From Deferrisomatales bacterium (GTDB taxonomy: Bacteria > Desulfobacterota > Deferrisomatia > Deferrisomatales > JARGFW01), in the NCBI GenBank assembly GCA_029211085.1, contig JARGFW010000002.1, positions 19,091 through 83,090 on the forward strand: a stretch of DNA of 64,000 nt, written 5' to 3'. Within the stretch, counting starts at the first letter, position 1. The number at the start of each line of letters is the position of its first letter. Shown one piece after another: positions 16,842 through 20,030 of this stretch. A model generated the notes under the pieces. It did no database searches and was not told the origin of the DNA. It was given only the letters and a program-made list of their open reading frames with translations. The translations under genes and the position numbers were made by a program.

Positions 16842-17274
16842 GGCGATCTCCCGGACGGTCTTGCGTCCGCATCACGAGGTGTCAAACGGGAAGGGAGCGA
16901 GGCGGGCCTCGTCGCCGCCTAAGCCTACCGTATCCACCGTACCCCGAACAGACCTGTCACGGAGCGTGGGGAGGGCAGGGCGCCTGCGGGAGGGCAACAT
17001 AGGGTGGAGTGCTTCCGGAACGGCGCGGGCACCCGCCGGGGGTCGTCTCGGTGAACGCTGGGGAGCGGGAGCTCGCACCCTGGGGGGGGATCCGGCCCCT
17101 GAAACGGGGAAGAGGACGGGGGCCGGGGGGCTCGTCACCGGGGTGCCCGAAGACCGGGGTAGGTTCCCGGGCTCCACCCTGCGGCAGTTCGCCGGCACCG
17201 CCACGAGCAGCCCCTACTGAGGCATGCCACCATCCGGAAAGTGGACCAAGGAGTTGAACGTTTGTTTCACCGGG

Positions 17275-17302
17275 CGCTGAAAGCGCGCCAGCGCTTTCAG
17301 CG
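17275..17302. terminator. Hairpin downstream of the HEPN-like gene (putative terminator)
   Basis: cgctgaaagcgc-gcca-gcgctttcagcg: perfect 12-bp stem, 4-nt loop. Confidence 0.5.
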
Positions 17303-17334
17303 ATCCGCGTGCAAACTATTGTTGGGTTCGCTGG

Positions 17335-18297
17335 CTAAACAGTAAAAACGCCATTGATATGCTTCACAATGGCGGAGACAGTGCTCTGAGCAACGTGCAC
17401 ATACTCAACTGCTGTCTTAGGCGAGATTGCCCACTGTGTACCAATTTCCTGATCCACACCATGGTCAGCTGCGTTCCGTATATGCCCTAGGTACTTCAAC
17501 ATAAACTTGTGCTTTGACAATAACTGGTTAGCTTGGCTTATAAATTCCGCTTTAGCATTAATTCCATTCGCATTTTGCAGGACGACACCATGGTAACCAG
17601 CAACCTGAACCAGGAAGGATTCTACAGCGTTTCCGGCATGTACTATAGGTGCTCTAGAATCGTCGGTGGCACTTGCAGCTCTTTGATATGCGGTAACTAG
17701 GTTATCTAACACATTGGGCCGATCAACCCAATCAACAGCCTCTTGGCCAAGAAGTTTGCTGACTTCAAGGACCGCGGTCTCTCGGTCCTGAATCACCTGA
17801 TCCAAAATGGTGAGATATTCTTTTGGATCATCTCGTCGAGGCTTGTACAACCCGCCGCCCTCCGAGATTAGTGACTGAGCATAGGTCCCTAAATCAATAA
17901 ATGTTGCGCTGATCACTTGTCGGTGCGCGTCTATGTTGTGCAGTGCTCTTGTCTGATTGGCTGCCTCGCCAACTACACCGGTAAGCTCAAGCCTCGCCTT
18001 GAAGGTACTATATGGCGCGTATTGTTCAAGAACATAGCGAAGGATCGCTGCCTTGTTGTCGCGAATTGCCGTGCACAAGTAGAGAGAGCACTTTGCGTCT
18101 GGAACAAACTTCCCGGGCTGAACTTCTCTCAATAGAGAGAGTTCTCTTGCCATCTGGAGGGCGTCACGCGCGTAGGGTGGCGTCGTATCTAGGAATGCAG
18201 AAACCAGGTTCTCATCTACACCGTCCTGCTTCTGCAACGCTGCATCCGTGGCCGCGATTACATTCTCAGCGCTTGTCTGGTAGATTTCATAAGGCAT
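17335..18297 (-). CDS. Uncharacterised protein with C-terminal HEPN-like motif (R-X4-H) and possible N-terminal winged-helix region
   Basis: 320-aa ORF in lower-GC DNA. C-terminus NQLLSKHKFMLKYLGHIRNAADHGVDQEIGTQWAISPKTAVEYVHVAQSTVSAIVKHING; the RNAADH segment fits the HEPN RX4-6H signature. Confidence 0.75.
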   Translation of the reverse strand: MPYEIYQTSAENVIAATDAALQKQDGVDENLVSAFLDTTPPYARDALQMARELSLLREVQPGKFVPDAKCSLYLCTAIRDNKAAILRYVLEQYAPYSTFKARLELTGVVGEAANQTRALHNIDAHRQVISATFIDLGTYAQSLISEGGGLYKPRRDDPKEYLTILDQVIQDRETAVLEVSKLLGQEAVDWVDRPNVLDNLVTAYQRAASATDDSRAPIVHAGNAVESFLVQVAGYHGVVLQNANGINAKAEFISQANQLLSKHKFMLKYLGHIRNAADHGVDQEIGTQWAISPKTAVEYVHVAQSTVSAIVKHINGVFTV

Positions 18298-18315
18298 GGA
18301 GCTACCCTCCCTGTC

Positions 18316-19056
18316 TTATGAATCCCTTGTGGTTTCGTCGTCTTCACCGTTAGTTGGGCGATCGATTTCTAGCATGAGCTTCCGAATCTTTTCTCCTAGT
18401 CCGTCTAGCTCAGATGGTTTTGCGTCGATGCGAAGCTCAATGTGTACAGATGCGCCTTTAGAAGGTAATGCTGACTGCCTAGAGACCTCATGTTGTACTT
18501 GCTCAGAACTTCCCGAAGGCTGCAAGGCCCCCCCCTCCGAGTGCAAGGATTGCTCACTAGCTGAGGTGCCTGCACTTGCGACCAATTGCCCATCATGCTC
18601 TCGAACAACACCCGCCGCACGTAACATGTCTACGACAGCCCGTGCCCCGGTCATAACGGGCCCCGACTTAGCCTCACCCGCAGAGTAGGCAATGTGAGAC
18701 TCCAGTGCAGAACTCTCCATCCTGCCACGGATTTTCACTGCGGCTGCCATCTTCTCTAAGAACTCATTGTCTTGCACAACAGTCAGCCAGTTCTCTTGCA
18801 TTTCGTCCGGGAGTTCGTGTTCCAATGCTTTTGCTAGGGCCCGCCCCTTCATGGTTGCGGCTTTCGCCCTACCACCCTCGATCAATTCAATATTCGCCAA
18901 GAACGCATTGTTGGCGCTGATGGCGGTCTTGTTCATTGCACAGTATTTTGCAACATCATCCAGAGAAGAAGGATCTTTCAGCCTGCCATACGCCTTAATG
19001 ATCTTGCAGATCTCTTCGTAAGACGAGCGTGGCAATTTGAACTTGGCTTCGGCCAT
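18316..19056 (-). CDS. Uncharacterised protein, putative DNA-binding winged-helix (DUF5343-like architecture)
   Basis: 246 aa from MAEAKFKLPRSSYEEICKIIKAYGRLKDPSSLDDVAKYCAMNKTAISANNAFLANIELIEGGRAKAATMKGRALAKALEHE...; C-terminal HIELRIDAKPSELDGLGEKIRKLMLEI; RBS (aggagga). 18 bp upstream of, and co-oriented with, the HEPN-like gene. Confidence 0.72.
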   Translation of the reverse strand: MAEAKFKLPRSSYEEICKIIKAYGRLKDPSSLDDVAKYCAMNKTAISANNAFLANIELIEGGRAKAATMKGRALAKALEHELPDEMQENWLTVVQDNEFLEKMAAAVKIRGRMESSALESHIAYSAGEAKSGPVMTGARAVVDMLRAAGVVREHDGQLVASAGTSASEQSLHSEGGALQPSGSSEQVQHEVSRQSALPSKGASVHIELRIDAKPSELDGLGEKIRKLMLEIDRPTNGEDDETTRDS

Positions 19057-19102
19057 GTCTATTCCTCCTGTTTTCTGACGTGATATTCCAAACCCAACAG
19101 GT

Positions 19103-19153
19103 GTTATCCGGCGTGACGGATAACCCAATATCCGTGACAGCGGGATAACCCGC
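19103..19153. promoter_or_regulatory. Palindromic operator-like repeats upstream of the two-gene cassette
   Basis: GTTATCCG-gcgtga-CGGATAAC (19103-19124, perfect 8-bp arms) and GCGGG-ATAA-CCCGC (19140-19153), sharing a GGATAAC core; 47-97 bp upstream of the start at 19056. Confidence 0.55.
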
Positions 19154-20030
19154 TATAGATGGCACCGCAGCTCGACCCGAAATCCGGCCCGGGGATGCGC
19201 CAGACCGCCCACCGGTTCACACTCGTTGCCGACCACTCCTACCAACAACCATCCCGCAAAAATGGCCACGAACCCCTGGGAGGCGTCGCGGCCACGGACT
19301 GCTGCGGTATCGATTCGCTTTCCCCTGGGTTGTCGCTTCTACATCGGAGGGGAGAGCGGAGTCAAGAACACGGAGCAGATAATATTGGAATTGAGGACGA
19401 ATGCTCCTGTGCAAATACAGTCGCCTCGTGATGCAGTTTGGAACGGTTGGAAACTGGAAACAGGAACAAACGAATGCCGGCAAATCGCTGCGCGAAAACG
19501 TTGGTTTCTAAACCAACGATAAGTCCACCCGAGTCATCCCGTCGGGTCCACCCAAGAGTCGGTTCACCACCGTAACCGTTTTTCACCCCCATCGAGAGCC
19601 GACACATTCGACAACCCGGCCGCGCTTGCCCGTTCTGGCGGCGCGGCCGGGTGGTTTTCTCGGGTGGGGCGCCCCTGCCGGGGCAGGTTCTACCACGCCC
19701 GCACGCCCACCGCGCGCCCGATCCATCCGTCCCGAACCGTCCGTCGCTCCCGACAACCGGGTGCCCTGATGCCGTCGGGGCCCGGTCCCCAACACCCCGT
19801 GCAACGCCAGGCGGGGCCATTCCCAGGTATTTCCCCATCTTCACGGTTTCTTCATGGGGGCTTCACGACCCTTTCACGACCCCGCGTCTACTCTTGGAAC
19901 CGTATCCGACACCGTTCCAGGCAGAGGAGGTGAGGGAAATGCAAAGGGCGCCGCCCACGAGATTCCAAGGGATCCGACGGTCAGTTCCATCAAACGTTCC
20001 CGGGGGGACAAGAGACGGAGGGAGAAAACG

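Follow-up and report, generated by a model that had tools for sequence, protein, structure and literature searches.

In the 64,000-nucleotide stretch of DNA analysed here (the window), the region 17259-19097 almost certainly represents an integron cassette of two genes that has been inserted into an attI-like site. The genes it carries, g1 and g2, form an obligate, horizontally moving unit. The best explanation for this unit, which we regard as probably correct, is that it is an integron-borne and undescribed effector/regulator pair of the abortive-infection or toxin-antitoxin type, in which the effector is a HEPN protein. The family of the pair is absent from the libraries searched; its kind, a HEPN effector module, and its vehicle, an integron cassette, are known.

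Gene g1 (18316-19056, minus strand; ORF of 246 aa) is the upstream member of the pair, and g2 (17335-18297, minus strand; ORF of 320 aa), predicted to encode a HEPN endoribonuclease, is the downstream member; they are separated by 18 bp. Both co-oriented ORFs are as the sequence-only reading had given them, and its observation that they are more AT-rich than their surroundings, together with the computation of G+C it had proposed, led to the following values. The G+C content of the cassette is 50.6% versus 67.9% for the window, and GC3 is 0.54 for g1 and 0.49 for g2 versus 0.95, 0.95, 0.81, 0.90 and 0.84 for five neighbouring ORFs, among which are a xanthine-dehydrogenase-like gene and a Cys/Met-metabolism gene. 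These low values indicate that the cassette is foreign-looking DNA. Relative to the nearest homologous locus (L010), dN is 0.23 for g1 and 0.16 for g2 and synonymous sites are saturated; both genes thus appear to be under purifying selection. Lower G+C (0.53-0.58) was also observed at positions 19160-19600 of the window, past the attI-like site, a region without a recognisable gene.

The cassette is 1839 bp long (17259..19097, minus strand) and consists of a TTGGGT 5′ end, g1, g2 and an attC site up to the G of its G/TT, the slash marking the point of opening. The attC site (17253..17327, minus strand) has the geometry sought in a simple attC search. On the minus strand it is composed of R″ ACCCAAC (17321-17327), L″ GTTT(G)CAC, whose bracketed G is extrahelical, an inner stem with perfect arms of 12 bp (17275-17286 and 17291-17302), L′ GTGAAAC, and R′ G/TTCAAC (17253-17259), of which the last six bases are those of the recipient site. 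The hairpin that had been noticed at 17275-17302 is therefore real, and it is the inner stem of attC. Just before g1, the 5′ junction G/TTGGGT (19092..19098, minus strand) is the exact complement of R″, as is expected from a circular cassette that was opened at G/TT. The attC site was the only match of the search in the window, and shuffled sequences gave an average of about 0.65 matches per 64 kb. In addition, exact copies of the L″ motif AACNNNNGTTTGCASGCGGA are present at only two places in the genome, here and in the array linked to the integron integrase gene (intI). The hairpin is not followed by a T-run in the direction of the genes. It had no match in Rfam either, and a structured RNA at this position was rejected on that ground.

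The palindromes reported at about 19103-19153 proved to be equally real, and belong to the attI-like site (19096..19153, minus strand), where they are followed by TAACACCTG/TT (core 19096-19106). The sequence TAACACCT precedes the cassette junction, which gives TAACACCTG/TT, and this is identical to the attI core located beside the genome's own integron integrase on contig C357, the one integron integrase in the genome that scored above the curated cut-off (430.8 bits versus 265). The sequence TAACACCTGTT is found at four places in the 5.78 Mb genome: by intI on C357, on C295, on C343 and at the cassette junction described here. On C295 and C343 the core forms part of a 90-100 bp sequence that is 98% and 85% identical, respectively, to the C357 site; the palindromes at 19103-19153 match the other attI sites in layout and not in sequence. 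AT-rich cassettes follow the sites on C357, C343 and C295, and the R″ of their attC complements their own 5′ end, as judged by eye. No intI is present within the window, and no intI relic was found beside the cassette by tblastn. Within the limit that a draft genome with an estimated contamination of 8.5% sets to the placement of the four attI sites on a single chromosome, these dispersed sites, which are unusual as a set, bear on whether a single integrase can supply several chromosomal places with cassettes.

Each of the four attI-like sites (in genome G000, C357:26168, C343:26351, C295:37830 on the minus strand, and window positions 19096-19106 on the minus strand) has one or two AT-rich cassettes behind it, and those on C343, on C295 and in the window have no integrase alongside. 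Other cassettes of this genome (L034:8487-9173, plus strand; L056:4821-5531, plus strand; and the first C295 cassette, which is the reverse complement of L071 from about 4170) encode small AT-rich proteins that are probably membrane-bound; the one cassette protein examined, that of L034, had no match in Pfam. At L007 the homologous pair is located behind an integron integrase (369 bits) and a RelA_SpoT cassette with a typical attC; after the pair itself no attC was recognised. The RelA_SpoT-domain protein (L007:11104-12216, minus strand), the first cassette and directly before the HEPN pair, weakly matches the PADLOC candidate PDC-S33. At L012 a GTTAGAC-ended hairpin with a degenerate R″ is located after g2.

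We consider g2 very likely to be a member of the HEPN family. AlphaFold predicted two winged helices (residues about 10-153) and, in the C-terminal part, a HEPN bundle (residues about 160-314) with helices at 193-208, 215-236, 261-279 and 293-314, the overall pLDDT of the model being 90.4. This is in agreement with the fold that the sequence-only reading had led us to expect. The R-X4-H it had spotted near the end of g2 corresponds to R274-NAAD-H279, which in the model is found where a long helix (helix 3) ends; according to PMC3710099, this is where the motif is located in HEPN RNases. Conservation of the R and the H, which had been proposed as a check, held in all 19 aligned relatives. Invariant residues across the alignment are R274, N275, D278, H279, G280 and E226; the invariance of R and N is partly by construction, since both were written into the scan pattern, outside of which D278, H279 and G280 are located. 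The second HEPN motif, Ex3[KR], is half present: E226 is invariant, and position 230 is variable and not K/R. Against Pfam family DUF4145 (PF13643) the window g2 scored 15.2 bits, below the gathering cut-off of 23.1 bits, and weak similarity to this family, which belongs to the HEPN clan, was detected for 17 of the 19 members at E ≤ 0.1 (best 5.2e-5). The Foldseek matches were all weak, and included a HepT-type HEPN toxin (6m6u, over the HEPN part), Csm6 and an RNase-LS-like phage protein. The motif and the model point to g2 as a putative RNA-cutting enzyme.

For g1, tandem winged helices were predicted with high confidence at residues about 10-160, in line with the HTH-like N-terminal segment suspected earlier, followed by a predicted disordered linker (residues 165-201) and a short C-terminal tail. 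The model weakly resembles the domain with which the restriction enzyme BpuJI recognises DNA. The supposed resemblance of g1 to DUF5343-type proteins found no support in sequence: no Pfam DUF5343 match was obtained in 18 members at E ≤ 0.1, and the assignment was rejected. In PADLOC, NCBIfam, PHROG and Pfam, g1 had no family match; neither g1 nor g2 matched a profile of PADLOC-DB 2.0.0 at E ≤ 10, and the two weak matches that these four libraries gave for the window pair were DUF4145 and the winged-helix family TBPIP. On this basis, membership of a known defence or toxin-antitoxin family was rejected. An hhalign comparison of the winged-helix halves of g1 and g2, whose predicted layouts look alike, gave nothing in favour of a common origin. 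The description of the pair as a HEPN protein with a winged-helix partner is supported by the weak but consistent DUF4145/HEPN similarity, the predicted bundle, the invariant RX4H and the obligate pairing shown by the relatives.

When one genome per species was scanned, 17 loci were found among 85,462 species. They are spread over at least six phyla, archaea included (Nitrospirota, Candidatus Eiseniibacteriota, Chloroflexota, Planctomycetota, Myxococcota/'Deltaproteobacteria', Pseudomonadota and Euryarchaeota), and within the window's phylum relatives are present in 4 of 396 genomes, the window's own counted. At every locus on a long enough contig g1 is directly upstream of g2, the two genes being -1 to 32 bp apart; L012 ends at a contig edge, where the last residues of g1 are still visible. 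Distances among g1 and among g2 proteins are correlated (r 0.77, Mantel p 0.0005). The gene tree is at odds with taxonomy: the nearest relative of the window pair is from Nitrospirota, copies from Rhizobiaceae and Oxalobacteraceae are sisters, and archaeal copies are interspersed with bacterial ones. The suggestion that the unit is mobile was borne out, its vehicle being the integron gene cassette. Defence genes near homologues were convincing at three loci, a count made without a background control: DpdF at L024, methyltransferase and specificity genes at L019, and a HerA-like gene at L020. Many other homologues sit amid ordinary genes. No match was found in named phages.

A role of the pair in defence or as a toxin-antitoxin module is, on balance, probable. 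HEPN domains with an intact RX4-6H are described as effectors of toxin-antitoxin, abortive-infection and other conflict systems in PMC3710099. Anti-phage cassettes are known from integrons; according to the review PMC12409362, they make up at least 16 of 179 cassettes in V. cholerae, and in V. parahaemolyticus 9 of the 57 that were tested. In the mechanism that we propose, g1 and g2 would associate in a complex, with g1 keeping the HEPN dimer inactive; DNA binding or regulation of the operon may be further functions of g1. Infection by a phage would be the trigger, either because g1 is lost or because the winged helices bind nucleic acid of the invader, and released g2 would cut RNA, halting the phage or the cell. 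That g1 is the restraining partner of g2 falls a little short of an even chance. Somewhat more tentative still is the full picture, in which an undescribed anti-phage pair spreads across distant bacterial and archaeal phyla, partly as integron cassettes, and is inserted here at one of several dispersed attI sites that lack an integrase of their own and are served in trans by a single one. If true, a two-gene HEPN effector system would join the growing list of integron-carried defence modules, and this addition would lie outside the well-studied Vibrio arrays. The pair would also lend itself to a simple test, with a single predicted pair of catalytic residues, a single partner gene and a single attC.

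The alternative nearest to this interpretation is that the pair is a stabilising toxin-antitoxin cassette, in which g2 would be an RNase toxin and g1 a labile DNA-binding antitoxin and autorepressor, so that it keeps the cassette in place rather than stops phage. The tight coupling with the partner gene first is consistent with this, as are the weak fold match of g2 to a HepT-type toxin and the precedents for HEPN toxins in toxin-antitoxin systems and for RNase toxins in integron cassettes, both on record (PMC3710099). However, g1 matches no antitoxin family, and both proteins exceed the usual size of toxin-antitoxin proteins; their size, together with the two winged helices that g2 itself has, suggests sensing. 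We consider a purely stabilising role unlikely. Less likely again, and rather improbable, is a regulatory or housekeeping RNA-processing pair, with a winged-helix regulator and a HEPN RNase that has a single host RNA as its substrate. The patchy distribution of relatives speaks against it, and the gene tree that ignores taxonomy, the foreign composition and the carriage by an integron fit mobile cargo, even though many homologues are surrounded by ordinary genes and HEPN proteins with non-defence roles exist, as PMC3710099 indicates.

A different objection concerns the vehicle: the hairpin could be a transcription terminator and the palindromes an operator, their likeness to attC and attI being due to chance. 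By the simple test no attC was found downstream of most other homologous loci, from which it would follow that other vehicles exist for the family, and single attC matches do arise in shuffled sequences at the frequency given above. A chance likeness would nevertheless have to account for the exact complementarity of R″ and the cassette 5′ end, the attC geometry, an attI core in common with the integrase locus and the matching cassettes on C295 and C343, and a terminator for a hairpin that lacks a following T-run in the gene direction. We therefore regard it as very improbable, and retain the integron cassette as the vehicle.

Among known systems, the DUF4145-like HEPN proteins (PF13643, PMC3710099) have, like g2, a HEPN bundle with R-N-x3-H, and DUF4145 domains co-occur with restriction-modification and other conflict modules. 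Relative to these proteins, g2 has two additional winged helices at its N terminus, and its partner is always a tandem winged-helix protein; this combination is absent from the DUF4145 arrangements in the available part of Anantharaman et al. 2013 (PMC3710099). RnlA-RnlB and LsoA-LsoB (RNase LS) are also two-gene units with a HEPN RNase effector; however, g1 has no family match to link it to RnlB-type antitoxins, and winged helices in g2 replace the RNase-H-like N-terminal domain. HepT-MntA similarly combines a HEPN protein with a small partner, but g1 is a predicted tandem winged helix without a nucleotidyltransferase match. The integron-cassette HEPN family of PDB entry 3jrt is likewise a case of small defence or toxin modules on attC cassettes; the g1-g2 pair has no sequence relative in the PDB and is thus not recognisably of this family. 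Compared by description, the integron anti-phage cassettes of Darracq et al. 2025 and Kieffer et al. 2025 (via PMC12409362) are small attC modules as well. A remote relative of g2 (23% identity) was observed on a Haladaptatus plasmid (NZ_CP119793.1, L002:5860-6843, plus strand), in which RNPSGGH replaces RNAADH and a DEAD/DEAH helicase gene precedes the g2 relative in place of g1.
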